In this document: positions 15,008 through 44,380 of the stretch, piece after piece
Layout of the letters: each line of letters starts with the position of its first letter
Position numbering within the stretch: the stretch's first letter is position 1
Translations under genes and position numbers: made by a program
The notes under the pieces: generated by a model
Seen by the model: the letters and a program-made list of their open reading frames with translations, nothing else
What the model was told of the DNA's origin: nothing
The model's database searches: none
Assembly (NCBI GenBank): GCA_036490475.1
Contig: DASXDT010000001.1
Span: 1 to 64,000, forward strand
Length of the DNA: 64,000 bases
Origin: Candidatus Tumulicola sp.
GTDB taxonomy: Bacteria; Vulcanimicrobiota; Vulcanimicrobiia; Vulcanimicrobiales; Vulcanimicrobiaceae
Reading direction: 5' to 3'

Positions 15008-16339
15008 TTATTTCTTGATGAAGCCGCGGTAATCGCGCATCGCCAGGCGTGCTTCGATTTGCGTGATGGTATCCAGCGCCACGCCGACGACGATCAGCAG
15101 CGACGTCGAACCGAGATAAAACGTCGTTACCGACAGGCCGCGCTGGAGCGCTCCGGGGAGCACGGCCAGCAAGCCGAGGTAGATGGCGGATGCGGTCGTG
15201 ATGCGGACTAGGATCTTGTTGAGGTAATCCACCGTCGGCTGTCCCGGACGAATGCCCGGAATGAAGGCGCCGGTCTTCTTAAGGTTGTCGGCCACGTCGC
15301 GCGTGTTGAGCACGACCGAGCTATAGAAGAACGTGAAGATCACGACCAGCAAGAAGTAGACGATGTTGTACAGCAGGCCGTTGGGCGAGAAGTACAGATT
15401 GAGCAGCTGCGAGATGGCCGGCGGATTGCTCGGTAGCGAGATCGGTCCGAACAGATGGAAGTAGGTCGCCGGCGTATTGCCGTGCGCGAACCACGACAGT
15501 GCCTGCTGCGGCAGCAACAGGATCGAGATCGCGAAAATGATCGAGATGACGCCTGCGTTGTTGAGGCGCAGCGGAATGTAGGTAGAACGTCCGGCGAACA
15601 TCTTGCGGCCGACGGTACGGCGGGCTTGCTGCACGGGCACGCGCCGCTGACCCTGGTATAGGAAGATGATCGAAACGATCACGATCAAGGCGGTCAATAT
15701 ATACAAGACGATGTTAAGCACCGATTCGGCGCCCTGTGTCGTGGACGTCAGCGTCTGCGTGACGTAGGTCGGGAAGCGCAGCACGATGCCGATGAAAATG
15801 ATCAGCGAAACGCCGTTGCCGATACCCTTGTCCGTCATTTGCTCGCCGAGCCACATCAAGAACAACGTGCCGGCCACCATCGCGATAATGGCGTACAGTA
15901 AAAACCAGATGCTAGTATCGTAAAAGACGTGCGAGCGCTCCATGGCGTTGGCCATGAACGTAGCCTGCATGGCGGCCAGCACGATGGTCAGCCAGCGAGT
16001 GTATTGGCTGATCTTTTTGCGGCCTTCTTCGCCGCCTTTTTTGGCCAGCTCTTCGAGTTGCGGCAAGACGACCGTCATCAACTGCATGATGATCGACGCG
16101 TTGATGTAGGGCGTGATGCCCATCGCGATAACCGACAACTTCTGCAGCGCGCCGCCCGACAGGAAGCCGAGCAAGTTGTAGAACGCGCCGCTCTGCAACA
16201 CACTCTGCCACTGCGCTTGGTTAACGTTGGGCAGCTGCACGTGGATCATGAAGACGAACCACGCGAAGCCGAACAGCACGAACAGAAGCCGCTTCCGGAT
16301 CTCTGGGACGAGAACGGCAGCGCGAAGATTATCGAACAA
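15008..16339 (-). CDS. secY: Protein translocase subunit SecY
   Basis: Central channel of the Sec translocon in the inner membrane. The 443-residue protein has ten predicted helices, the plug region with a GGALQKLSVIAMGITPYINA stretch and the conserved cytoplasmic QGQRRVPVQQARR. It starts with TTG one base after the rplO stop, so translation is probably coupled to rplO. Confidence 0.96.
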   Translation of the reverse strand: MFDNLRAAVLVPEIRKRLLFVLFGFAWFVFMIHVQLPNVNQAQWQSVLQSGAFYNLLGFLSGGALQKLSVIAMGITPYINASIIMQLMTVVLPQLEELAKKGGEEGRKKISQYTRWLTIVLAAMQATFMANAMERSHVFYDTSIWFLLYAIIAMVAGTLFLMWLGEQMTDKGIGNGVSLIIFIGIVLRFPTYVTQTLTSTTQGAESVLNIVLYILTALIVIVSIIFLYQGQRRVPVQQARRTVGRKMFAGRSTYIPLRLNNAGVISIIFAISILLLPQQALSWFAHGNTPATYFHLFGPISLPSNPPAISQLLNLYFSPNGLLYNIVYFLLVVIFTFFYSSVVLNTRDVADNLKKTGAFIPGIRPGQPTVDYLNKILVRITTASAIYLGLLAVLPGALQRGLSVTTFYLGSTSLLIVVGVALDTITQIEARLAMRDYRGFIKK

Positions 16340-16340
16340 G

Positions 16341-16856
16341 TTAGATGTTCTCGATGATCGTTGCGCCGGCAGCCGTCAAGGCGTCACGCGCGCTCTGCGA
16401 AAACACGACGTGGCGGAAACGCAATCCGGCCGGCAGATCGTGCCCCGGCCTGGCTTCGCCCAAAATTTTCACGCCGTCACGAAGCGACGCAAGGACGCCA
16501 TGCTTTTTGAGTGATTCAGGCGTGACTTCGATCGATGTATCCCAGCCCGACAAGCGATGCAAATTGACGACCGCAAGACGCGTCCGGAAATGTCCGATAT
16601 CGCGCGCCTTTTGGGAGTAACCGCGGTTGTGCGGTAAGCGCCGCTGCCACGGTGTCTGCCCGCCCTCGAAGGCCGGACCCTTGCCGCCGCCCGAGCGAAC
16701 GGTTTGACCCTTGCCGCCTTCGCCGCCGGTTTTGACCATGCCGGAACCGTGGCCGCGACCGATGCGCTGACGCTTCGGGCGGCTACCAGGCGCCGGAACG
16801 AGCGCGCCGAGTTTGAGTGGACCGGCCGAGGCCGTCGTCGTGGTTTCGTCTGCCAT
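16341..16856 (-). CDS. rplO: 50S ribosomal protein L15
   Basis: Large-subunit assembly protein. The 171 residues are somewhat longer than the usual 145 because of an extra N-terminal 10-15 residues rich in Thr/Ala. The glycine-rich core (RIGRGHGSGMVKTGGEGGKG) and FEGGQTPWQRRLP are typical. It follows rpsE directly; the L30 gene (rpmD) that often sits between them is missing. Confidence 0.95.
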   Translation of the reverse strand: MADETTTTASAGPLKLGALVPAPGSRPKRQRIGRGHGSGMVKTGGEGGKGQTVRSGGGKGPAFEGGQTPWQRRLPHNRGYSQKARDIGHFRTRLAVVNLHRLSGWDTSIEVTPESLKKHGVLASLRDGVKILGEARPGHDLPAGLRFRHVVFSQSARDALTAAGATIIENI

Positions 16857-16877
16857 CGTATTCGTTCTCGTCTGCCG

Positions 16878-17390
16878 TTAGGCGGCGAAGATTTCCTTAA
16901 CCGTCTTGCCACGCAGCGATGCGACGCGTTCGGCGGTCCGCAAGGACCGGAGCGCCTCGACCGTCGCCATGACGACGTTGATCGGATTGGTGGTTCCCAA
17001 GCATTTGGTCAGAATGTCGTGAATGCCGGCCAGTTCGAGCACGGCGCGCATCGAACCGCCGGCGATAACGCCGGTGCCGGGAGCGGCTGGTTTGATCATG
17101 ACGCGTGCGGCGCCTACCTGCATAAATACTTCGTGCGGAATCGTTTTTTCGACCATCGGGACGGTGACCAGGCTCTTCTTGGCCTGCTCGACCCCTTTAC
17201 GGATTGCGTCCGGAACCTCGCCGGCCTTACCGATCGCGAAGCCGACCTTACCGCGACGATCGCCGACGACGACCAGCGCGCTAAAGCTAAAGCGCTTACC
17301 ACCCTTGACGACCTTCGCAACGCGATTCACGCGCACGACCGTTTCTTCGAATCCGCTGTTGTCGCGCTCGCGACCGCCACGATACTGCAT
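16878..17390 (-). CDS. rpsE: 30S ribosomal protein S5
   Basis: Small-subunit protein involved in decoding accuracy. The 170 residues contain the N-terminal double-stranded RNA-binding fold ([19 protein letters not shown]) and the C-terminal domain with [17 protein letters not shown]. It starts where rplR stops (one shared base). Confidence 0.96.
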
Positions 17391-17755
17391 TAAAAGTTCA
17401 ACCCCGCTTCTCGCGCCGCATCCGCAAGCGCGCGTACCCGTCCGTGATAACGATTGCCGCCGCGGTCGAAGACCACGTCGGAGATGCCGGCTTCTTTGGC
17501 CTTAGCGGCGATCGCCGATCCGACCGCTTTGGCCGCCTCGACGTTGGTCTTCGATTCCAAACTTTCGCCGACCGGTTTTTGCACGGTCGAGACCGCAGCG
17601 AGCGTGACGCCGCGCGAATCGTCGACCAGCGTTGCGTAGATATGGTGCAGCGTGCGCTGCACGAACAACCGCGGACGCTCTTGCGTACCGGTAACCTTCT
17701 TGCGCAAGCGCTCGTGGCGCGCGCGACGCGAAACCGCTTTGGAAGCTTGCGCCAT
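17390..17755 (-). CDS. rplR: 50S ribosomal protein L18
   Basis: 5S rRNA-binding protein. The 121 residues begin with a basic segment ([14 protein letters not shown]) and end [20 protein letters not shown], the typical L18 signature. It shares a base with both rplF and rpsE ends, so the genes are coupled. Confidence 0.96.
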
Positions 17756-18306
17756 TACTTCTTGCCAGCCTTTCCGGCTTTACCGAGTTTCTTACGCACG
17801 ACTTCGCCCGCGTACCGGATGCCTTTGCCCTTGTACGGCTCGGGCGGACGCAGATTACGGATGTCGGCTGCGGCTTGTCCGACGGCTTGCTTATCGATGC
17901 CGTCGACGTGCACGCGGTTCGTGCCCTCGACACTCAAGACGATACCGGCCGGCGGCTCGAATGTTACCGGGTGCGAGTAGCCCAAATTGAAATTCAACCG
18001 GTCGCCGGCCTTCGAAACGCGGTAACCGACGCCCTGAATCTCCAGGCTCTTACGAAAGCCCTTGCTCACGCCCTCAACCATATTGGCGATGAGCGTGCGC
18101 GTGAGCCCGTGCGAGCTGCGGTACGGTTTCGAATCGCCCTTGCGCTCGACCGTCAACGTTCCGTCGGACAGCTTGACGTCGACCAATTGCGGTGCGATCG
18201 CCTGGCTCAGCTGGCCCTTCGGACCTTTGACGCTGACGGTGCTCTCGGCGACCGTAACGTCGACGCCGGCGGGAACCGCGACCGGCAACTTTCCTATGCG
18301 TGACAT
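17755..18306 (-). CDS. rplF: 50S ribosomal protein L6
   Basis: Two-domain 23S-binding protein. It starts [17 protein letters not shown] and ends with the family signature [19 protein letters not shown] followed by a lysine-rich tail. The 183-residue length is standard. A 36-base gap separates it from rpsH. Confidence 0.97.
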
Positions 18307-18342
18307 TCTATCGTTCTCTCTCTTGCATCGTTCTAAAGCGGA

Positions 18343-18744
18343 CTACCAGACGTAGGCTATGACCTCGCCGCCGACGCCAACTTTTTTGGCGCGTTTGCCG
18401 GACATGATGCCCTGCGGCGTCGAGATGATGACCAGACCCAAACCGCCCAGCACGCGCGGAATCTCCGACTTGCCGGTGTAGACCCGCAACCCCGGGCGCG
18501 AAATGCGGCGAAGGCCGTTGATGACTTTTTCTTTTTCCGGCCCGTACTTGAGCTGGATGCGGATGAGGCCTTGCGGACCCTCCGTCACGCGCTCGAAACT
18601 GACGATGAAGCCTTCATCGACGAGAATCTGCGCGATCGCCTGTTTGGGGCGCGAGGCCGGAATATCGACCGTCTTGTGGTTGGCCATATTCGCATTGCGA
18701 ATGCGCGTCAACATATCGGCGATGGGATCGGTTACTGCGGACAT
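18343..18744 (-). CDS. rpsH: 30S ribosomal protein S8
   Basis: 16S-binding assembly protein. The 133 residues start [18 protein letters not shown] and end with the signature [20 protein letters not shown]. It follows rpsN by 10 bases. In E. coli S8 is the translational repressor of the spc operon; whether that applies here cannot be read. Confidence 0.97.
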
Positions 18745-18754
18745 GCCTTCCCCC

Positions 18755-18940
18755 TTACCACGACGCCTTGGTCACGCCAGGAACGACGCCTTTGTGCGCG
18801 TTCTCACGGAAGCAGATGCGGCACATAGCAAAGCGACGCAAGTAGCCGCGCGGGCGCCCGCAGATGCGGCAACGATTGTAATCGCGCACCCCGAACTTGG
18901 ACCCACGCTGCTGCTTGACTATCATGCTCGTTTTCGCCAT
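18755..18940 (-). CDS. rpsN: 30S ribosomal protein S14, zinc type
   Basis: A 61-residue short S14 with a CxxC...CxxC zinc site (CRIC and CRIC, about residues 24-27 and 40-43). This zinc form is typical of many non-proteobacterial lineages. Its ATG overlaps the rplE stop (TAATG). Confidence 0.96.
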
Positions 18941-24800: not shown

Positions 24801-25448
24801 CTACGCCCCCGCCGCCGGCGCGACCGGCCGGCTCTTGACGCTCTTGCGAACGATCACGAGGCCATTTTTGGCACCCGGAACCGGACCGCGAATCAACAGC
24901 AAGTTGCGCTCGCCATCGGCGCGGACGACTTCCAGATTCTGCGTCGTCGTGCGATCGACGCCGTAGTGTCCGGGACGCCGGCTACCCTTAACGGTACGAC
25001 CGGCGTTGGTGTCGCCGTTCGAGCCGGGCTGGCGGTGGATCATCGAACCGTGGCTCGCGCCGCCGCCGCTGAAGTTGTGGCGCTTGATGCCGCCGGCAAA
25101 GCCGTGGCCCTTCGAGATGCCTACCACGTCGATGCGATCGCCGGCTGCGAACTCGGCGACCGTCACGGTCTGACCGGCTTCGACGCCGTCGATGTCGTCG
25201 CGAAACTCGCGCACGTAACGTGCCGGTTCGACGTTCTGCTTCTTAAAATGCCCAGCAAGGGCACGGGTTACGCGGCGCTTTTTACGCGTGCCGAACCCCA
25301 GAGCCACGGCATCGTACCCGTGCTTCTCTTTCGTCCGGCGTTCCACGACCGTGCAGGGACCGGCTTCGATCACCGTCACCGGGACATATCGCCCGTCGTC
25401 GGTGAAAACGCTCGTCATCCCAACCTTGCGGCCAAGGATGTTCTTCAT
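24801..25448 (-). CDS. rplC: 50S ribosomal protein L3
   Basis: Assembly-initiator protein near the peptidyl-transferase centre. The ATG at 25448 (MKNILGRKVGMTSVFTDDGR) is chosen, giving 215 residues; the upstream open frame runs through the promoter region and is rejected. GGAGGASHGSMIHRQPGS-like core residues mark the family. It is the first gene of this block because rpsJ is detached and lies about 6 kb upstream. Confidence 0.95.
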   Translation of the reverse strand: MKNILGRKVGMTSVFTDDGRYVPVTVIEAGPCTVVERRTKEKHGYDAVALGFGTRKKRRVTRALAGHFKKQNVEPARYVREFRDDIDGVEAGQTVTVAEFAAGDRIDVVGISKGHGFAGGIKRHNFSGGGASHGSMIHRQPGSNGDTNAGRTVKGSRRPGHYGVDRTTTQNLEVVRADGERNLLLIRGPVPGAKNGLVIVRKSVKSRPVAPAAGA

Positions 25449-25563
25449 ACGTCCTCGTCCTGTTGAAATAAGGGGTGCTAGTACACGGGCCCAGGCGTAT
25501 CGACTAGAACTTTCGACCGGCACACGCAAATAACCGCGGGCCGGCCTGGACCACAACCCGGAG

Positions 25564-25592
25564 AGTGTATCAGGCGCCGCGAGAGGCGTCAA
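25564..25592 (-). promoter_or_regulatory. Promoter of the rplC ribosomal block
   Basis: On the minus strand TTGACG (25592-25587), a 17-base spacer and TACACT (25569-25564), followed by a leader of about 115 bases before the rplC ATG. The leader could host ribosomal-protein feedback control, but I see no decisive structure. Confidence 0.7.
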
Positions 25593-25707
25593 GGGCGAGA
25601 GTCGGCAGCCATGATGCCCGGACTTCGATCCATAGAAACGCTAGGTGCGCGTTCGGTGGCTCGCTCGCTTGATTCCGATCCCGCACCGTGCCGGTAAGGG
25701 GCACAGA
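25593..25707. other. Intergenic stretch without a recognised gene
   Basis: Together with the rplC leader (25449-25563), promoter and the repeat element this fills the 513-base gap between rplC and the glutaryl-CoA dehydrogenase-like gene. I see no gene, tRNA or clear terminator in this part. Confidence 0.5.
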
Positions 25708-25950
25708 AGCACTGCAAAATTTGGACTAGACTTAGTCCGCTGGTTCACATTTTGGCGATCGCCAAACTCGTCCTCAATGCTGTTGTTCATGGCCGACGCC
25801 CCGTTTCGCGCTGTCCGAGCCGTCGCCAATACGCCAGACAGAGCCGGACCGAACGCCGAAGCGGCCCAAAAAGCCGCATCCACACGTTACCGATTTGTGA
25901 ACGAGTGGACTAGACGTAGTCCGATTTCGCTACAGTCGAAAACGGGTGTG
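25708..25950. mobile_element. MITE-like element, copy A
   Basis: About 243 bases with inverted terminal sequences of about 35 bases. The left end carries GGACTAGACTTAGTCC (25723-25738) followed by GCTGGTTCACATTTTGG; the right end, read in complement, carries GGACTACGTCTAGTCC (25907-25922) followed by ACTCGTTCACAAATCGG. Each 16-mer is itself an inverted repeat (GGACTA/TAGTCC around 4 bases). A short hairpin segment with CTACAGTC follows at the right. Both ends match copy B (43567-43804) while the interiors do not align. No open frame resembling a transposase is present. It lies between the rplC promoter and the 3' end of the acyl-CoA dehydrogenase gene. Confidence 0.65.
25751..25766. repeat. 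Perfect 16-base palindrome inside element A
   Basis: TTTGGCGATCGCCAAA is a perfect palindrome just inside the left terminus of element A. It could be a protein-binding site; no equivalent perfect palindrome is visible at the same place in copy B. Confidence 0.5.
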
Positions 25951-25961
25951 TGCCGCCCGGC

Positions 25962-27146
25962 CTACGTGAATGCGTCGAGACCGGTGATCTCTTTTCCGAC
26001 GATGAGCGCGTGCATCTCCGTCGTGCCCTCGTAGGTGAGGACCGATTCGAGATTGTTCATGTGTCGGATCACCGGATACTCGAGGGTCACGCCGTTGGCG
26101 CCGAGGACGGTGCGGGCGGTGCGCGCGATCTGCAGCGCTTGGCGAACGTTGTTGAGTTTTCCGAAACTCACTTGCGAGGGATGCAACTGTTTGTCGTCTT
26201 TGCGCCGGCCGAGGTGCAATGCCAACAACGTGCCTTTGTTCAGCTCGAGCAGCATGTCGACCAGCTTTTCTTGCGTGAGCTGAAAGCCGCCGATCGGCCG
26301 GTCGAACTGCACGCGCGTCTTAGAATACTCCAGCGCGGTCTCGTAGCACGACCGCGCGGCGCCCATCGCGCCCCAGATGATCCCGTAGCGCGCTTCATTT
26401 AAACAGGCGAGCGGGCCGGAGAGACCGCGCGCCTTCGGGAGCAGCGCTTCGGCCGGCAGACGGCAGTCGTGCAGCACCAGTTCGCTCGTAACCGATGCGC
26501 GCAACGAAAGCTTGCGGTGGATATCGTTCGCGCTAAAGCCCTTGGTGCCGGCGGGAACGATGAATCCGCGGATGCCGTCGTCGGTCTGCGCCCAAACGAT
26601 CGAAACATTGGCGATCGAACCATTGGTAATCCACATTTTGGTTCCGTCGAGGATCCAATCGGAACCGTCGCGGCGCGCGGACGTGCGCATTCCGCTAGGA
26701 TTGCTGCCGAAGTCCGGCTCGGTCAAGCCGAAGCATCCGATGGCTTCGCCGCGAGCCATCGACGGCAGCCAGCGATTCTTCTGCTCTTCGCTGCCCCAGC
26801 GGTAGATCGCGTACATCGCAAGCGAGCCTTGAACCGAGGCAAAGCTGCGTACGCCCGAGTCGCCGGCTTCCAATTCCAAACAGGCGAGACCGTACGCCAC
26901 CGCGCTCGCTCCAGGACAACCGTACCCGTCGAGGTGCATGCCCAGGACGCCCAACTCACCCAAGCCGCGCCCCAGATCCCGCGGCAAGGTGCCGCTCTCG
27001 AACCAGTCGGCGACGTTAGGGGTAATGCGGTCGCGTACGAACGCGCGGACGCTGTCGCGGATCAGGCGTTCTTCGTCGGAGAGCAGCCCCGAAATGCCAA
27101 TGAAGTCGACGGCGTCGGGAGCGCTACGCGGGGTCGCTCCGCTCAC
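25962..27146 (-). CDS. Glutaryl-CoA dehydrogenase-like acyl-CoA dehydrogenase
   Basis: FAD enzyme of the acyl-CoA dehydrogenase family, 394 residues. It resembles glutaryl-CoA dehydrogenase, which oxidises and decarboxylates glutaryl-CoA to crotonyl-CoA in lysine, tryptophan and aromatic breakdown. Supporting features are [17 protein letters not shown] at the N terminus, [15 protein letters not shown] in the middle, and [20 protein letters not shown] at the C terminus, with the catalytic Glu in YEGT. It could take the end product of the aromatic-CoA modules further along the window. The start overlaps the upstream aldo/keto reductase stop by 4 bases. Confidence 0.82.
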
Positions 27147-28129
27147 CGGTTGACGAAGCTCATATCTTCGTAGCGGTCGCCGCTGGCGACGCCCGGCGGA
27201 AAGATGTCATCAAGCCACTGCAGTTCCTCATCGGTCAGTTGCACCGCAAGTGCGCCGACGTTCTCTTCTATATAGCGCACGCGTTTGGTGCCCGGTATCG
27301 GGACGACGTCGTCGCCCTGCGCCAAGAGCCACGCGAGCGCGATCTGCGAGGGGGCGCAGCCCTTTTTGGTTGCGAGCTGGCGAACCGCATCGACCAGTGT
27401 CAGATTCTTGGCAAAGTTGTCGCCGGTAAAACGCGGCGAGCTGCCGCGAAAGTCCCCGGGCCCAAAATCGCCCGCGCTCTTGATTTCGCCGGTGAGGAAG
27501 CCGCGGCCGAGCGGACTGTATGCCACGATTGCGGCGCCGCACTCGCGGAGCGCCTCTAACTGGCCGTTCTCTTCCAGATCGCGCGACCAGAGCGACCATT
27601 CGTTTTGGACCGCCGCGATGGGGTGCACGGCGTGCGCGCGGCGGACTGTCTCGGCCGAGGCCTCCGACAACCCGATGTAGCGCACCTTACCGGCTTCGAC
27701 CAAGCGCGCCATCGCACCGATCGTTTCTTCGATCGGCGTAGACGTGTCGACGCGATGCTGGTAGTACAAGTCGATCGTGTCGACCTTCAGCCGGAACAAC
27801 GACGCATGGCAGGCAGCGGAGACGTACGCGGCACTTCCGTCAATGCCGCGCTTTTGCGGATCGTTGGGATCGCGCACGATTCCAAATTTGGTTGCGATAA
27901 ACACATCGTCGCGACGGCCCGCAATCGCCCGGCCTACCAGCTCTTCGTTGTCGCCGGTGCCGTACATATCGGCGGTATCGAGCATCGTAATGCCGAGGTC
28001 GAGCGCGCGGTGGATCGTGCGAATCGACTCCTCGTCGTCGCGCTGTCCGTAAAAATCGGACATGCCCATGCAGCCCAGCCCCAGTTCGGATACCAGGGGA
28101 CCGGCCGTACCAAGTTGTCGTTGGTTCAT
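27143..28129 (-). CDS. Aldo/keto reductase
   Basis: NADPH-dependent oxidoreductase with TIM-barrel fold, 328 residues. The catalytic tetrad is visible: Asp and Tyr in [17 protein letters not shown], Lys in FIATKFGI and His in DLYYQHRVD. The N terminus ([20 protein letters not shown]) fits the AKR13-type bacterial group. Natural substrate not evident. Located upstream of and coupled to the acyl-CoA dehydrogenase gene. Confidence 0.9.
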
Positions 28130-28154
28130 CTACCTACCAATCGCCGGCGGGCGA

Positions 28155-28580
28155 TTAGCGTTTCAGCACGCGCGCGAGTTTGTCGAACAACGCCTCGGTC
28201 GACCGCTCGAATTGGTCTTCGAAACGCCGCCAGAACAGCCGGCCATCCGTATCGGATAATTGCGCGTCGAACCTGTGGACCACCGTGGTCGTCTTACCTT
28301 CGGTCGTCACATAGAAACCGTGCACTCCGTCGATGCCTTCGTTTTGAATGCGCCATACGATGCGGTCTTCGGAAACGGCCTCTTGCAGGACGGCATGCAC
28401 GCCCAGATGCCACTCTTCGGTTTTACCGACGGATAACGGGCCGGGCGAACGCATAAACGGCTGCGACGCAAACGGCCAAATTTGATCGCCAGACGTCCCC
28501 ATTTCTTCTAAGAGATGGTAGATTCGCCGTTTCGTGCCGCTAAATTTACGCTCGCGGGCCTCATGAAGCTCGATGGGCAT
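28155..28580 (-). CDS. SRPBCC-like (START/Bet v1) domain protein
   Basis: A 141-residue soluble protein whose pattern (N-terminal helix, WPFASQPFMRSPGPLSVG, WRIQNEGIDGVHGFYV, then a C-terminal helix FDKLARVLKR) suggests the SRPBCC ligand-binding fold. No catalytic residues are identifiable. It sits 14 bases after the second chromate-transporter gene, in the same run. The family call is moderate. Confidence 0.55.
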   Translation of the reverse strand: MPIELHEARERKFSGTKRRIYHLLEEMGTSGDQIWPFASQPFMRSPGPLSVGKTEEWHLGVHAVLQEAVSEDRIVWRIQNEGIDGVHGFYVTTEGKTTTVVHRFDAQLSDTDGRLFWRRFEDQFERSTEALFDKLARVLKR

Positions 28581-28594
28581 GCCCGCTCGCTTCG

Positions 28595-29137
28595 CTAACG
28601 TAGCGCAATTATCCCCACAACGCCCGACGCGACGATCAGCACCGGTGCGCTAAGCTTCGTGCGCAGCGTGAGCAACACGACAACGGCGGTGACGGCGTAT
28701 GGCAAAATGCCGGCCGGGGTTCCGCGCGCGATCGTCAACACGCTCGACCATACCAACCCGACGATGGCCGGTGCCAAGCCACGCGCCAAGATCGGCCGCC
28801 ACGGCGAGTTTGCGAAGCGATCCCAAGCAACGTCGGCTGCCATCATAATCGCGCTCGACGGAACGAACATGCCGACGGTCGCAACCGTCGCGCCGATCAA
28901 CGGCGTCTTCGGCATCGCCGCATATCCGATCAGCGCGGCAAAAATCGTCGTCGGCCCCGGCACGAGCTTGCCGATCGTGTAAAACTGCGTGAACTGTGCC
29001 GACGTCACCCAGCGGTAGTTTTCGACCGCGTCGCGATGCATCTGCGGGATGATGCCTTTGCCGCCGCCGAAGCCTAAGACCGATAACTGTCCGAACGTCC
29101 ATAGCAGATGGAGCGCCGTATGCATCGTACTGCTCAC
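28595..29137 (-). CDS. Chromate transporter, half-size subunit (second of pair)
   Basis: A 180-residue inner-membrane protein with the ChrA half-domain pattern: FGQLSVLGFGGGKGIIPQMH near the N terminus and IGKLVPGPTTIFAALIGY after it, then about four more helices. In the short-chain ChrA family two half-size proteins act together in exporting chromate or importing sulfate-like anions. It overlaps the partner gene by 4 bases. Confidence 0.85.
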   Translation of the reverse strand: MSSTMHTALHLLWTFGQLSVLGFGGGKGIIPQMHRDAVENYRWVTSAQFTQFYTIGKLVPGPTTIFAALIGYAAMPKTPLIGATVATVGMFVPSSAIMMAADVAWDRFANSPWRPILARGLAPAIVGLVWSSVLTIARGTPAGILPYAVTAVVVLLTLRTKLSAPVLIVASGVVGIIALR

Positions 29138-29715
29138 GGCGAGGCGGCCTGACGGCGAGAGCGCAGATATTCGTGCATGATGCCGATTCCGCCGAAAACG
29201 ACTAGCACTAACAGCAACGGCATTTTGAAGAGCGACACGACCACCGCCGTGAGCGCCAGTAACAGCAACTTAATCCAGTCGTTGCGTTCGTCCCAGCTCA
29301 ACTCCAACGCATTGGCCACCGTGAGCCCGAGCGCGCCGACGGCGCAGCCGCGCAGGCCGCCCCGGACGAACGGATTTTCTGAATACTTGAAGTAGAGGGC
29401 GCCTGCGACTAAGACGATGAGGAGCGGCGGAATGCTGGCGCCCAGAAAGGCTGCGATCGCTCCCGGCACGCCGCGCGCGCGCTGACCGCAAAAAATCGCG
29501 AGGTTGAGAATGTTTGGACCGGGCAACACTTGCGCCAACTCGAGGCCTTCCAAAAAGGCGTCTTTGTCCATCCAACCTTGCTTGACGACCTGCTGGCGGA
29601 TCGACGCCTTTTGGCCGCCGCCGAACGACGTCGACGAAATCGCGGCAAAAACCAGCGCGACGCTGAGCAGCGTCGGCCGGACGGGCGGCGCCGGTGCGTC
29701 GTCGCTAGCCGGCAT
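29134..29715 (-). CDS. Chromate transporter, half-size subunit (first of pair)
   Basis: A 193-residue membrane protein paralogous to the downstream gene, with SSTSFGGGQKASIRQQVV and LAQVLPGPNILNLAIFCG as the family signature. Tandem half-size genes are the usual arrangement of the short-chain ChrA type. The start overlaps the HIT-domain gene by 11 bases. Substrate remains inferred from family. Confidence 0.85.
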   Translation of the reverse strand: MPASDDAPAPPVRPTLLSVALVFAAISSTSFGGGQKASIRQQVVKQGWMDKDAFLEGLELAQVLPGPNILNLAIFCGQRARGVPGAIAAFLGASIPPLLIVLVAGALYFKYSENPFVRGGLRGCAVGALGLTVANALELSWDERNDWIKLLLLALTAVVVSLFKMPLLLVLVVFGGIGIMHEYLRSRRQAASP

Positions 29716-30148
29716 CCGGCAGCGGACCGTCGATCACCGGCGACGTGTGTTTTCCGGACAGGATGTGGATGTGCACGTGCTCGGTGTGCTGATATGGCGG
29801 CAGCACGCCCATCCGAACCGTAAAGCCTTTTTCGTACATTCCCATCTTGAGCGCGACTTTTTGAATGCCGGCGAGCAAACGGCTCCAGATGCGCGCGTCC
29901 CCTAAACCGAAATCCAGGAGCGTCGGTATCCATTTTTTCGGAATGATGACGACGTGGACTTCCCACCACTCGGGTTTGCTGCGATCGATGTTGTGGCGGA
30001 ACGCGAAAACGTCGTCGTCTTCGTATACGACCTCATCGGCGCGGGCGCGCGTTCCGTCGAGCCGGCCGCGAAACGTGTGGTCGGGATCGGGCTTCTCCCA
30101 CGTACGCTGTTCTGGGCCGCTGATGAGGTGCGAGATCCACTGCGTCAT
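29705..30148 (-). CDS. HIT-domain protein
   Basis: A 147-residue nucleotide-binding protein of the histidine triad superfamily, with HVHIHIL (HxHxH) near residue 128-134 preceded by PPYQHTE. Members hydrolyse or transfer nucleoside monophosphates from dinucleotides or adenylated substrates. The ATG at 30148 has GGAG before it; a longer open frame upstream is antisense to the divergent paralogue and is rejected. It is the first gene of the run toward gcdH. Confidence 0.85.
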   Translation of the reverse strand: MTQWISHLISGPEQRTWEKPDPDHTFRGRLDGTRARADEVVYEDDDVFAFRHNIDRSKPEWWEVHVVIIPKKWIPTLLDFGLGDARIWSRLLAGIQKVALKMGMYEKGFTVRMGVLPPYQHTEHVHIHILSGKHTSPVIDGPLPDAG

Positions 30149-30251
30149 AAACGCTCCTTCAAAGTAAGCCGGCGCGAACGATCGGAGTTCGACGGCAAAA
30201 CGTCCGTCCTTCCAGCAGGTCGCGCGGCCGTCACGCTCAAAGCGCGTGCGT

Positions 30252-30689
30252 ATGGCCGACTTCAAAGACGGTAAATCCGTCGTTTCCCCGAGCGATATCC
30301 TAGCTGGGCCACCGGACTGGCCCAAGGAACCCAAATCTTGGGACAAGATCGTCGGCGACAGCGAGATCATCTTTGAAGATTCGCACGTCGTCGTGTTCCA
30401 CGATCCGGTCGACGAAGACAATGAGTCGCCGCGTGAGGAGGCCGAGCTGCGCGCGACCTTGTTGTGCAAGAAGCACGTGCACAGCTTGATGGATCTGGGC
30501 GTCGCGGACGAGCAGCTGAGCGCCAAGATTCTGCACGGCATCCAACAAGCGGCGTACAGGCTTGGCTTGGAGGCAAAAGGATTCGAAGTCCGAGCACACG
30601 TGTATCCGCCGATGCAACACCGTCCCGAGTTAGCCTTTAAACTCCGTTCCGGCAAACCGCCCAAGAAAGGCGACGCCGCAGCGGGCTAA
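30252..30689 (+). CDS. HIT-like protein with degenerate histidine triad
   Basis: A 145-residue protein clearly homologous along its length to the divergent HIT-domain protein (for example IIFEDSHVVVFHD versus VVYEDDDVFAFRHN, and AHVYPPMQHRPELAFKLRSG versus RMGVLPPYQHTEHVHIHILSG). The triad region reads HRPELAFKL, so the catalytic histidines are lost. The ATG at 30252 (MADFKDGK) or a GTG 6 bases upstream may be the start. It may be a regulatory or structural partner of the active paralogue, which is speculation. Confidence 0.75.
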   Translation: MADFKDGKSVVSPSDILAGPPDWPKEPKSWDKIVGDSEIIFEDSHVVVFHDPVDEDNESPREEAELRATLLCKKHVHSLMDLGVADEQLSAKILHGIQQAAYRLGLEAKGFEVRAHVYPPMQHRPELAFKLRSGKPPKKGDAAAG

Positions 30690-30768
30690 CTCGTCCCGAT
30701 TGGCCGTCGTCAGTCGGGCCACATAAAAAGTAAGAGGTCGCTCGAGTATCGCGAACCATCGTAGCCAG

Positions 30769-31158
30769 ATGAAAAATGCATTTAGCGCGTTCGCGTCCGG
30801 CGTTAACCGGTTCGTTTCATCTCCGGCAGCGACCGGAGCCGCCTTTATCATCGTCCTCGTTTGGGCGCTTTTCGGGCCAATTACTCGTTATTCCGACGGC
30901 TGGCAGCTTCTCATCAATACCGGAACGACCATCGTCACGTTTCTTATGGTCTTCGTCCTTAATAACGCGCAGAGTCGCGATACCATAGCGATGAACGCAA
31001 AGCTCGACTCCCTTATTAGCGCGATTGAGAAAGCGGATAATCGGCTCATCGGGCTCGAGGCGCTACCGCCCAGCGAAGCCGAACAAATTACGGCGGAACT
31101 CCACCATCCGGAAAACGACGGAAGCGAGAGCCAAACACACCGCGAAAAGGACCGCTGA
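30769..31158 (+). CDS. Low-affinity iron permease family (PF04120-like) membrane protein
   Basis: A 129-residue protein with two hydrophobic spans (about residues 21-41 and 50-68) and a soluble helix after them. LINTGTTIVTFLMVFVLNNA followed by DTIAMNAKLDSLI is characteristic of the low-affinity iron permease-like family found in many bacteria. Transport by the short bacterial members is not established. The C terminus is polar and charged. Confidence 0.75.
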   Translation: MKNAFSAFASGVNRFVSSPAATGAAFIIVLVWALFGPITRYSDGWQLLINTGTTIVTFLMVFVLNNAQSRDTIAMNAKLDSLISAIEKADNRLIGLEALPPSEAEQITAELHHPENDGSESQTHREKDR

Positions 31159-31169
31159 TGCGGCGGGGA

Positions 31170-31203
31170 AGTCGGGGCCACACGGCTCTCGGGCGCCCCG
31201 ACT
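31170..31203. terminator. Hairpin between convergent genes, possible terminator
   Basis: AGTCGGGGC (31170-31178) and GCCCCGACT (31195-31203) form a perfect 9-bp stem with a 16-base loop, lying between the iron-permease-like gene and the DUF5654-like gene. No long T-tract is present on either side, so this is a weak terminator or a structural element. Confidence 0.4.
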
Positions 31204-31219
31204 CTCGCGAAAATAGCGG

Positions 31220-31459
31220 TTAGCGAACCTTCGGGCCGATATCTTTTTCGGCGAGTTTACCGAGTGCTTGCACCACGAAGATGGCCAGCAGCGTGACGAG
31301 CACTGCGTAGATTAGCTCGGCCAGCACACCGCTGCCGGGCTTGAGAAATAACGCGATGGTATCGCTGATAAACTTATTCCATGCGCCCGCGGCGATCAGG
31401 CCGAATGCCACCGTGGCCAGCGCGACCATTGTGCCCAGGTACGTCGGTTTGACTTCCAC
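31220..31459 (-). CDS. DUF5654-like small membrane protein
   Basis: A 79-residue protein with two transmembrane helices (about residues 8-27 and 44-64) and the pattern TVAFGLIAAGAWNKFISDTI, resembling the DUF5654 family. The GTG at 31459 is chosen because GGAGGG lies just before it; a TTG 12 bases upstream would sit inside that ribosome-binding site. A terminator hairpin lies directly upstream, so its own promoter or readthrough from rpsJ is needed for expression. Confidence 0.65.
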   Translation of the reverse strand: MEVKPTYLGTMVALATVAFGLIAAGAWNKFISDTIALFLKPGSGVLAELIYAVLVTLLAIFVVQALGKLAEKDIGPKVR

Positions 31460-31473
31460 GTTGCCCTCCAAAG

Positions 31474-31507
31474 CATAAAACGACGGAGTGTTTTCCGTCG
31501 TTTTATG
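31474..31507 (-). terminator. Rho-independent terminator after rpsJ
   Basis: A perfect 14-base inverted repeat, CATAAAACGACGGA and its complement, with a 6-base loop, 45 bases after the rpsJ stop. Read on the minus strand the stem is followed by TTTTATG. The A-rich start and T-rich end make it a bidirectional terminator candidate. It marks the end of the str-rpsJ transcript. Confidence 0.75.
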
Positions 31508-31551
31508 GGGAACGGCTTGGGCTGCCCTGCCGGGCGGCCGCTTGCGAACTC

Positions 31552-31860
31552 TTAGGCTTTGAGTTCGATGTCCACACCGGCCGGGAGATCGAGATGCATC
31601 AGCGCGTCCATCGTCTTGGGCGACGCTTGCAGAATGTCGATCAGCCGCTTGTGGGTGCGCATCTCGAAGTGCTCGCGCGATTTTTTGTCGTTGTTGGTGG
31701 AACGCTGCACGCAGAAACGATTGATTTCGGTTGGGAGCGGAACTGGACCGCTTACGAACGCACCGGTGCGCTTCGCCGTTTCGACGATGCGCTCTGCAGA
31801 TTGGTCAAGCACGCGGTGGTCGTAAGCCTTTAACCGGATGCGAATCTTTTGTTTTGACAT
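31552..31860 (-). CDS. rpsJ: 30S ribosomal protein S10
   Basis: Small-subunit protein and NusE antitermination factor. The 102-residue protein starts [19 protein letters not shown] and keeps [18 protein letters not shown]. It directly follows tuf, so here it belongs to the str transcript and is separated from rplC by about 6 kb of unrelated genes. Confidence 0.97.
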
Positions 31861-41655: not shown

Positions 41656-43161
41656 ATGTCTAGCGCTGCTTTTGTGATGCTCGGCCTAGCGGCCGTGGTC
41701 ACGGTGCTCGGGTTCGTAGCGGCGCGCTGGGGTTCGCCTAATCTGCAGAGTCTCGATGAATGGGCGCTGGGCGGACGCAGGTTCGGCACGATCGTGTCGT
41801 GGTTTCTGCTCGGCGGCGACCTGTATACCGCGTACACGTTCATCGCCGTTCCTGCGCTGGTATATGGCGTGGGAGCATTGGGGTTTTTTGCGGTGCCGTA
41901 TGCTACGGTTGCGTACCCGATTGCGCTCGTCGTGCTGGTACGTTTTTGGGGCATAGCGCGGTCGCGCGGCTATGTGACGAGCGCCGATTTCGTGCGCGAC
42001 CGTTTCGGCTATCGCCCGCTGGAGGTTGCGGTGGCGCTCACCGGGGTGGTGGCCGCAATGCCGTACATCGCCTTGCAGTTGATCGGCATGCGAGCGGCTT
42101 TCGAGCAACTGGGCGGCGTATTTGCGGCGTACCACGGCTTGCCCGCGCTGACGGTAGCTTTTGCGCTATTGGCTGCGTACACATATACAAGCGGCTTACG
42201 CGCGCCGGCGCTGATCGCGTTCGTGAAAGACACGTTGATTTATGTGACCGTGATTGCGGCGATCGTTGTGATTCCTTCGCGGTTGGGTGGTTGGTCGCAC
42301 ATCTTTGCGGTCTCTGCATCCGTGTTAGCATCGAGGCCGAAACCGGGATCGATCTTTCTGGCGCCGTCGCAGTATTTTACCTACGCGACGATGGCATTTG
42401 GTTCGGCCTTGTCGTTGTTCATCTATCCGCATTCGATCACCAGCGTGTTGGCGGCCAAAAGCCAGGAAGTGATCCGGCGGAATATGGCACTGCTGCCGAT
42501 TTATTCGTTGTTGTTGGGGCTGCTCGCGTTGCTCGGATATTGCGCGATCGCGGCCGGCATTCACGTTAAGCCCTCGCAGACGAGCAGCGTCGTGCCTTTG
42601 CTGTTCGCGCGATTCTTTCCGGATTGGTTCGCGGGCGTGGCCTTCGCTGCGATCGCGATCGGAGCGCTCGTGCCGGCCGCGATCATGTGCATCGGTGCGG
42701 CCAATTTGTTTGCGAGCAACGTCTTCCGCGAGTTCTCGCCGGAGCGCAATCCGGTGGAGACGCTGATCGCGCGTCGGTTAACGTTGGCGATGTGCGCTTG
42801 TGGCTTGCTGCTGATCTTCTTCCTTCCCGTGCCGTATGCGATCGACTTTCAGTTGTTGGGCGGATCGGTGATGTTGCAGATCTTCCCGTCCTTCGTTTTG
42901 GGGCTGTGGACGCGCTGGTTCGAGCCGCGCGCGCTGCTGGCCGGATGGGCCTGCGGAATCGCCTCGAGCTGCGCGATGGCGTATGCCGCCGGCTTTAGCT
43001 CGAATTTTACCGTTGTGGTGTTTGGGCACTCGGTGACCGGATTTATCGCATTGTACGCGCTGACGGTCAATCTGTTGGTGAGCGCAGCTGTAACCTTGGT
43101 TTTGCGTGGAATGGGGACGCACGCCGGGATAGACCGCACGACCGCAGGAGATTACACGTGA
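41656..43161 (+). CDS. Sodium:solute symporter family protein (first copy)
   Basis: A 501-residue inner-membrane protein with about 13 helices of the SSS family, with LGGRRFGTIVSWFLLGGDLYT in the N-terminal region and a proline-rich helix breaker near GYVTSADFVRDRFG. It is closest in feel to the monocarboxylate/acetate branch. With the DUF3311 subunit it probably imports an organic acid. Its stop overlaps the ridA start as GTGA, so the two are coupled. Confidence 0.87.
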   Translation: MSSAAFVMLGLAAVVTVLGFVAARWGSPNLQSLDEWALGGRRFGTIVSWFLLGGDLYTAYTFIAVPALVYGVGALGFFAVPYATVAYPIALVVLVRFWGIARSRGYVTSADFVRDRFGYRPLEVAVALTGVVAAMPYIALQLIGMRAAFEQLGGVFAAYHGLPALTVAFALLAAYTYTSGLRAPALIAFVKDTLIYVTVIAAIVVIPSRLGGWSHIFAVSASVLASRPKPGSIFLAPSQYFTYATMAFGSALSLFIYPHSITSVLAAKSQEVIRRNMALLPIYSLLLGLLALLGYCAIAAGIHVKPSQTSSVVPLLFARFFPDWFAGVAFAAIAIGALVPAAIMCIGAANLFASNVFREFSPERNPVETLIARRLTLAMCACGLLLIFFLPVPYAIDFQLLGGSVMLQIFPSFVLGLWTRWFEPRALLAGWACGIASSCAMAYAAGFSSNFTVVVFGHSVTGFIALYALTVNLLVSAAVTLVLRGMGTHAGIDRTTAGDYT

Positions 43162-43550
43162 GCGATTTGGTTTTACCCGAAGGTTGGCCGCGCCCGAGTG
43201 GCTACGCGCAGGGCGTCGTGGCTTCGGGTCGCGTTTTGGCGATTTCCGGCCAGATCGGCTGGAACGAACGGAACGAGCTGGTTGGTCCGGCATTTCTCGA
43301 ACAGGCGCTGCAGGCGCTGCGTAACGTCGTTGCGATCGTTCGCGCGGCCGGGGGCGGGCCCGAGCATCTGATGCGGCTGACATGGTATGTGGTCGATTGC
43401 GCTGAGTATCGCGAGGCGACGCAGGCGTTGGGTGCTGGCTACCGCGAGATTATTGGTTCGAACTATCCGGCGATGACGCTGGTGCAGGTTGCGGCACTGC
43501 TGGAGGAAGGCGCTCGAGTTGAGATCGAGGCGACGGCGGTGCTGCCCTAA
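43158..43550 (+). CDS. RidA-family protein
   Basis: A 130-residue YjgF/YER057c/UK114 protein, a trimeric enzyme that hydrolyses reactive enamine/imine intermediates to ketones and ammonia. SGYAQGVVASGRVLAISGQI at the N terminus, NVVAIVRAAGGGPEHLMRLT in the middle and PAMTLVQVAALLEEGARVEI at the end are characteristic. Expected next to pathways producing aminated ring intermediates, such as 2-aminobenzoyl-CoA breakdown. Coupled to the symporter gene; the MITE-like element B lies directly after it. Confidence 0.9.
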   Translation: MSDLVLPEGWPRPSGYAQGVVASGRVLAISGQIGWNERNELVGPAFLEQALQALRNVVAIVRAAGGGPEHLMRLTWYVVDCAEYREATQALGAGYREIIGSNYPAMTLVQVAALLEEGARVEIEATAVLP

Positions 43551-43566: not shown

Positions 43567-43804
43567 GACACCCCGATTTCGGACTGTAGGGAATTCGAAC
43601 TACGTCTAGTCCACTCGCTCACATAACTATTACGCAAACTTAACCGTTTTTGCGTCGGTTTTGACTCCAAACGGTTCGCCGTCAGGTCTCACTTGCCGAG
43701 AATTAGGGACGAGCGCGACGATCACTCGCGTTTCGAGCCGAAAAACGCGTTACCAAAACGTGAACTGGTGGACGTAGTCTAGTCCGAATTCCCGACAATG
43801 CTAA
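43567..43804. mobile_element. MITE-like element, copy B (inverted)
   Basis: About 238 bases in opposite orientation to copy A. Its left terminus contains GAACTACGTCTAGTCC (43597-43612) and its right terminus GGACGTAGTCTAGTCC (43770-43785); outside these, GGGAATTC and GAATTCCC extend the inverted repeat. The ends match copy A over 35-60 bases, including the outer CTACAGTC/GAAATCGGG hairpin segment, but the interior of about 130 bases is unrelated. No transposase frame. It lies between ridA and an unrecognised gene and fills the gap between them. Confidence 0.65.
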
Positions 43805-43828
43805 ACATGGGCGGCGGGGTCTATTTTC

Positions 43829-44380
43829 CTAGGATCGCGTGGTATACAAACACCAGCAATAATTCGCGGTTCCAATTCGCGACGCGGATATCTCGTTATA
43901 TCCGTGTATAACATCGACGATATCGCTGGGCTTGACTTCGGGAGGATATTCCGGGAAGTCCACAGCGTTCCCAGTGAGCACCGGAATTCGCCGCCCGTCG
44001 CGCAAGATCAGCGCGAACGATGTTCCGCCCATCGAGGTCTCGCCGCCGCGATACAGCTTATTGGCAAGTAGCGCCGGCAATCGTGAGGGCGATGAAAAAA
44101 TACGCTTAACGCGTGATATCGAGAACAAGCTCTTGCAAGGGTCATCTAAGGGCCAGACGCCCCAATGTTTGTGCCAACTAAACGCCTCAGCGAAGTACAC
44201 GCGATCGATGAGTTGCCCGCTTTCAACTTCGACACAGCAGGGTCGATACACCAGCTCGCCGTCGCGCGATGGCTCAACGGCGAGAATCTCTTGGAGAAGC
44301 CTCCCTTCGAGCACGGGGATGCGCGCTGTGCTGCCGGTTGACTTGCTGCTCCGAACCTCGACATATTGCTGTTTCAGCAT
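43829..44380 (-). CDS. Unrecognised soluble protein
   Basis: A 183-residue protein without signal peptide, with several cysteines (CC near residue 48 and a late CWC). I recognise no family. Its base composition is more A/T-rich than the neighbouring catabolic genes, and it borders the MITE-like element, which hints at acquisition. It lies 9 bases downstream of the CoA-ligase gene on the same strand and may be co-transcribed, but no functional link is visible. Confidence 0.5.
   Translation of the reverse strand: MLKQQYVEVRSSKSTGSTARIPVLEGRLLQEILAVEPSRDGELVYRPCCVEVESGQLIDRVYFAEAFSWHKHWGVWPLDDPCKSLFSISRVKRIFSSPSRLPALLANKLYRGGETSMGGTSFALILRDGRRIPVLTGNAVDFPEYPPEVKPSDIVDVIHGYNEISASRIGTANYCWCLYTTRS

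Follow-up and report, generated by a model that had tools for sequence, protein, structure and literature searches.

Sixteen inverted-end elements with palindromes in helical register in Candidatus Tumulicola: possible formerly mobile DNA kept as paired protein-bridging sites

The genome of this Candidatus Tumulicola sp. (3.32 Mb, 7 contigs) contains 16 elements of a single family, each bounded by two inverted, palindrome-bearing ends whose spacing follows the pitch of the DNA helix. The dispersal of the copies, the constraint on their ends, the helical register, a phased internal motif, and the clustering of the family together argue that a protein complex very probably holds both ends of an element together. 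As to the present role of the elements, we tentatively favor, with slightly less than even confidence, the reading that they are ancient elements which once moved and are now retained where they lie, as paired protein-bridging (looping) sites.

Two copies, A and B, lie in the window, i.e., the 64-kb stretch at the start of contig C1 that was analyzed. Their parts and flanking genes are as follows (coordinates, strand, description).

25707–25938, unstranded: element A, whole, about 232 bp, delimited where paralogue homology stops; profile matches at 25709–25759 (+) and 25885–25943 (−)
25723–25738, +: left palindrome of A, GGACTAGACTTAGTCC, exact GGACTA-N4-TAGTCC
25739–25759, +: left inner conserved segment of A, GCTGGTTCACATTTTGGCGAT (consensus ACTCGTTCACATTTCGGTAAC)
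25760–25884, unstranded: interior of A, non-coding, its sequence little constrained
25885–25906, −: right inner conserved segment of A, GTTACCGATTTGTGAACGAGT
25907–25922, −: right palindrome of A, GGACTAGACGTAGTCC, exact GGACTA-N4-TAGTCC
25923–25943, −: right outer conserved segment of A, consensus TTTCGCACTGTAGGGAATTC reading inwards
43581–43801, unstranded: element B, whole, about 221 bp; profile matches at 43576–43635 (+) and 43747–43805 (−)
43597–43612, +: left palindrome of B, GAACTACGTCTAGTCC, 1 mismatch
43613–43769, unstranded: inner segments and interior of B; palindromes 173 bp apart start to start (16.5 turns)
43770–43785, −: right palindrome of B, GGACGTAGTCTAGTCC, 2 mismatches
24801–25592, −: ribosomal protein L3, rplC (Pfam Ribosomal_L3), flanking A and outside the element
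25962–27146, −: acyl-CoA dehydrogenase (Pfam), flanking A, its stop codon 23 bp from the element
43158–43550, +: RidA/L-PSP family protein (Pfam PF01042), flanking B, its stop codon 30 bp from the element

The original prediction had described the ends of A as inverted copies of each other, each with a 16-base inverted repeat, and this is confirmed: the ends are 75% complementary over 32 nt, and both repeats are exact. Its second copy, B, was said to have the same ends; the palindromes are present, and the flanks are shared with A (outer GAATTC..TAC, inner ACTCGTTCACA), but the palindromes are inexact. The extents it gave, 25708–25950 and 43567–43804, fell in the right places, but their borders have been corrected to about 25707–25938 and 43581–43801, since homology between two related copies ends about 16 bp outward of each palindrome. 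In A, the palindromes start 184 bp apart, i.e., 17.5 turns, and the length of the interior sets the helical register.

A profile of the ends, built from sequence only (62 positions, about 55 bits) and run against all contigs, found 32 ends that form exactly 16 inverted pairs. This search detected no lone or broken end in the genome, the next matches being weak or falling on the opposite strand of palindromes already counted. Only two copies had been recognized earlier, and mobility was to be considered unlikely if the ends occurred at only two places with the same neighbors; this condition does not hold, since the 16 copies found here lie beside unrelated genes. A chance origin of the palindrome pairs is ruled out by the profile result, by the sites with up to 2 mismatches in the window (4, against 0.7 expected), and by those with up to 1 mismatch genome-wide (26, against 2 for a reversed control pattern). 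A single end spans about 60 bp centered on the 16-bp palindrome and reads inwards, as a consensus, TTTCGCACTGTAGGGAATTC - GGACTAGACTTAGTCC - ACTCGTTCACATTTCGGTAACG. Conservation is highest in the palindrome and the 11 bases that follow it inwards, and it is weaker at the outer edge. At its center, the palindrome has four bases that occur in both orientations relative to the flanks, as would be expected for recognition by a symmetric dimer.

Outside this genome, no convincing profile match was found in 98 other genomes of the bacterial family or in the rest of a set of 149 phylum genomes, and the elements are absent from G001, the only congener compared. Any function would be lineage-specific, because the family is missing from the congener and from all other Eremiobacterota searched. 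A similar family in G001 was considered and rejected: within 400 kb, that genome has repeated 13-mers of its own (L246–L265), e.g., around CCGCTCAGGATGACAA and GCCCCGCAGCCACGCC, apparently belonging to other repeat families. Matches to the palindrome core only, at G093:C19:119276-119298 (L089, L090) and G097:C126:4665-4684 (L088), are probably due to chance.

The distances between the two palindromes of an element, measured start to start, are 142, 171, 172, 173, 173, 173, 184, 184, 194, 194, 195, 204, 207, 215, 216, and 236 bp, and their phase is concentrated at a period of 10.5–10.6 bp (R 0.86–0.87; R = 0.87 at 10.6 bp). Not one of 200,000 random sets was as phased when the period could vary from 9.5 to 11.5 bp (P < 5e-6 for all 16 elements, part of which are related by descent). 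With descent allowed for by collapsing the sample to its 8 distinct length classes, P is 0.0005 at a fixed 10.5 bp and 0.004 with a free period. In three pairs of copies whose interiors can be aligned, the spacings are unequal by 22, 11, and 32 bp, i.e., 2.1, 1.05, and 3.05 turns; these differences are near whole turns, and the indels that persisted as the interior diverged have therefore been whole-turn ones. The motif CCGATC is present in 11 of the 16 interiors (shuffle mean 1.7; maximum of 6 in 1000 shuffles), and its 14 sites share one face of the helix as measured from either end (Rayleigh p about 0.0005); the exact motif is absent from the interiors of A and B.

The ends have changed far less than the DNA between them. 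Between C1_75814 and C1_248886 (reversed), 32/32 palindrome positions and 21/24 positions of the inner segments are identical, against 81/132 (61%) in the interiors (Fisher P = 1e-6 for the contrast between ends and interior). Similarly, the other homologous pairs have ends 77–93% identical, against 61–68% in the best interior block. No recent copies were found, this being the highest identity that alignable interior blocks reach, and in most pairs the interiors have decayed beyond recognition. The interiors were originally called unrelated, and they are indeed strongly diverged, but several share about 61–68% identity over 80–138 nt. The interior of B, for instance, is related to those of C6_1372252, C1_253970, and C1_259796, and the interiors of A and B are linked via C6_1372252.

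The left and right ends of the same element are no more alike (identity 0.593) than ends of different elements (0.618), a result that speaks against recent birth, gene conversion, and pairing as a hairpin. An invertible promoter (inverton) was rejected on this comparison, since recombining repeats would give the opposite; moreover, outward −10-like motifs often read against the neighboring gene. A structured non-coding RNA or a long 3′-UTR hairpin is very improbable: the elements fold strongly (mean z −5.1), but this is due mostly to their inverted ends (mean z −0.65 for the interiors), the left–right match is not in excess, and no Rfam match was found. Three double changes among 30 ends in the palindrome are a weak sign of an RNA hairpin, equally expected for a dimer site.

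REPINs and BIMEs, i.e., REP doublets moved by a RAYT (Y1 HUH) transposase via single-stranded hairpins, resemble the present family in their inverted, palindrome-bearing ends, less conserved spacer, intergenic location, and long-lived populations (PMC3116915). The elements also lie near gene ends, as such doublets would, and a degenerate GTAG (STAG), which may or may not correspond to the GTAG tag at the foot of REP palindromes, occurs 8–11 nt outside each palindrome. We nevertheless regard this origin as extremely unlikely. RAYT-driven movement failed its direct test in this assembly, no Y1_Tnp/RAYT gene being present in the genome, while the control search finds Y1_Tnp in 5 reference genomes. 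The ends carry no hairpin constraint (0.593 against 0.618, as above), helical phasing is unexpected for a single-stranded intermediate, and there are only 16 copies rather than hundreds. The spacing differs as well, being 71 bp in the GI REPINs of P. fluorescens SBW25 (PMC3116915), as opposed to 142–236 bp here.

Filled and empty sites, whose comparison the original prediction had proposed, could be aligned for element A. The gap between rplC and the acyl-CoA dehydrogenase gene measures 369 bp in the window, including A; in the relatives, the same gap holds about 22 bp (G001), about 26 bp (L136), and about 62 bp (L138) of unaligned DNA, i.e., site A is empty in all three. At other comparable sites, G001 has no element either. 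About 110 bp between the start of rplC and A (25593–25706), without counterpart in the relatives and outside the element family, may be an independent short insertion or else a newly arisen leader; this extra DNA, which is not element DNA, blurs the exact joint of A on that side.

S10 normally adjoins L3; the acyl-CoA dehydrogenase gene beside rplC is a group feature, since it is common to G001, L136, and L138. It is the first of several genes (25962–31860) between rplC and a conserved block adjoining EF-G (31.5–36.2 kb). Next to B, 43829–44380 holds a 183-aa ORF without a Pfam match, in place of which G001 has a different, unrelated gene, with both neighbors syntenic. Synteny with G001 is also broken at C1 about 248.5–263 kb (L070:4475-8164 and 16037-18936), where a 3-kb segment is inverted at C1_248886, and element C1_259796 is likewise at a segment border.

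The 16 loci, the homology that stops at the element borders, and the empty site A support the conclusion that the copies were dispersed through the genome. The mobile element of the original prediction thus stands as far as dispersal is concerned, though not as regards current mobility. The same observations, together with the TIR-like inverted ends, fit the main rival to our reading, namely a MITE that is mobile still or was until lately, with ends that serve as terminal inverted repeats for some autonomous transposon not seen here. Such an element could move by cut-and-paste and keep hopping without multiplying. The register would then arise because the transposase has to synapse the two ends of a segment whose shortness limits its twisting, the explanation proposed for the 10-bp length periodicity of short ciliate IESs in Paramecium and Blepharisma (PMC3408717, PMC9942856). 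Phased, conserved ends are also what a transposase would demand. Yet there is no recently identical pair of copies and no lone end, and conservation within the end is lowest at its outer edge, which is where a transposase would be expected to cut. Target-site duplications, which the original prediction had proposed to seek by flank comparison, were not found, no flanking direct repeat exceeding permuted controls, although old copies may have lost them. Nor was a source transposase with matching ends recovered: an autonomous element with these ends is absent from the genome itself and from the 149 phylum genomes, and nothing matching the ends was found in the viral contigs, phages, and plasmids searched with the patterns used, so an autonomous or viral source was rejected within these collections. 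We hold a still or recently mobile MITE to be possible, if less than probable.

The copies are strongly clustered. Twelve of the 16 lie on C1, at 25.7–260 kb, on a contig that makes up 8.7% of the genome (P = 2e-10), and four lie within 222 kb of C6 (1.353–1.575 Mb), with none on the remaining contigs; the two zones together cover about 460 kb of 3.3 Mb. End register, ends conserved against decayed interiors, and this clustering show that the sites are constrained as pairs, so both halves of the original prediction, first mobile and then paired-site, may apply in succession. The zone is not centered on dnaA (C6 about 886 kb), and any placement at the terminus would be tentative, as is the contig order: codon-3 skew and the links between contigs conflict with the orientation of the rRNA. 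C1 and C6 (L072, L077) end in a 1.25-kb repeat, 88.6% identical and in the same orientation, which probably broke the assembly. Titration sites made of DnaA boxes were rejected, TTATCCACA-like 9-mers occurring in only a few interiors.

On C1, 7 of the 12 copies lie no more than 46 bp after a stop codon, a placement shared by 10% of intergenic positions drawn at random (P = 5e-5; genes called with a simple codon-usage caller), and an eighth lies 36 bp after rnpB (RNase P RNA). This placement bears on the idea that the elements are operator pairs of a looping transcription regulator, i.e., a regulon. Palindromic, dimer-type sites in register are typical of looping repressors, e.g., LacR (PMC1762422). 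A regulon is nevertheless quite improbable: every arrangement of gene orientations occurs around the elements, most of them lie at 3′ ends rather than promoters, no common theme was found among the neighboring genes (L3, RidA, rnpB, others), and about 55 bits per end far exceeds what an operator needs.

A role in place, as bridging sites, is favored because the ends are intact and none is lone, despite interiors that have diverged to about 60%; a MITE family that last multiplied so long ago should have lost ends. Weighing against such a role are the restriction of the family to this lineage and the lack of a theme common to the neighboring genes. In the mechanism we propose, a putative dimeric DNA-binding protein would sit on each 16-bp palindrome, and would make additional contacts with the flanking segments on its inner and outer sides. 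These end complexes would then touch each other, aided by a putative protein at the internal CCGATC site, and close a loop of 140–240 bp that would form well only with the ends in helical register. Its use would be architectural bridging or insulation at gene ends in part of the chromosome, not continuing transposition, a logic comparable to that of domain-specific anchor sites. A more specific version, in which domesticated transposon-like pairs and a third internal site form a chromosome-architecture system, with a dedicated protein closing them into small loops of uniform kind over part of the chromosome, is rather unlikely. The register, the conservation of the ends against a free interior, and the phased CCGATC do go beyond an ordinary MITE.

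Placed among known systems, the elements are like MITEs in being short, non-coding, dispersed in intergenic DNA, and bounded by inverted ends; unlike MITEs, most of their interiors have decayed, target duplications and an autonomous partner were not found, the ends are in register, and the copies are clustered. With the short IESs of ciliates (Paramecium, Blepharisma; PMC3408717, PMC9942856), they share a decayed, transposon-like nature, constrained ends, and lengths that recur with a period of about 10 bp. Here, in contrast, the elements are bacterial and intergenic, the conserved ends are long and palindromic, the periodicity persists at 142–236 bp, and there is no evidence of excision. Repeated putative protein-binding sites concentrated in a chromosomal zone, here two (on C1 and C6), also recall MatP/matS, a system with 23 sites in the Ter domain of E. 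coli (PMC5441646), and RacA/ram, whose sites are domain-specific (PMC6593407). However, matS and ram are single short sites, as opposed to inverted pairs of 60-bp ends set in register inside inserted elements.

Free interiors with conserved ends are known from REPINs, and helix-length periodicity is known from ciliate IESs; to our knowledge, no bacterial element combines the two, and a literature search for one found none. The periodicity serves as a physical fingerprint of one protein complex holding both ends simultaneously, and the sequence is enough to read it. The family offers a test case for mobile elements turning into host sites and, in a phylum with very few cultures, its elements give a concrete DNA bait for finding the binding protein.
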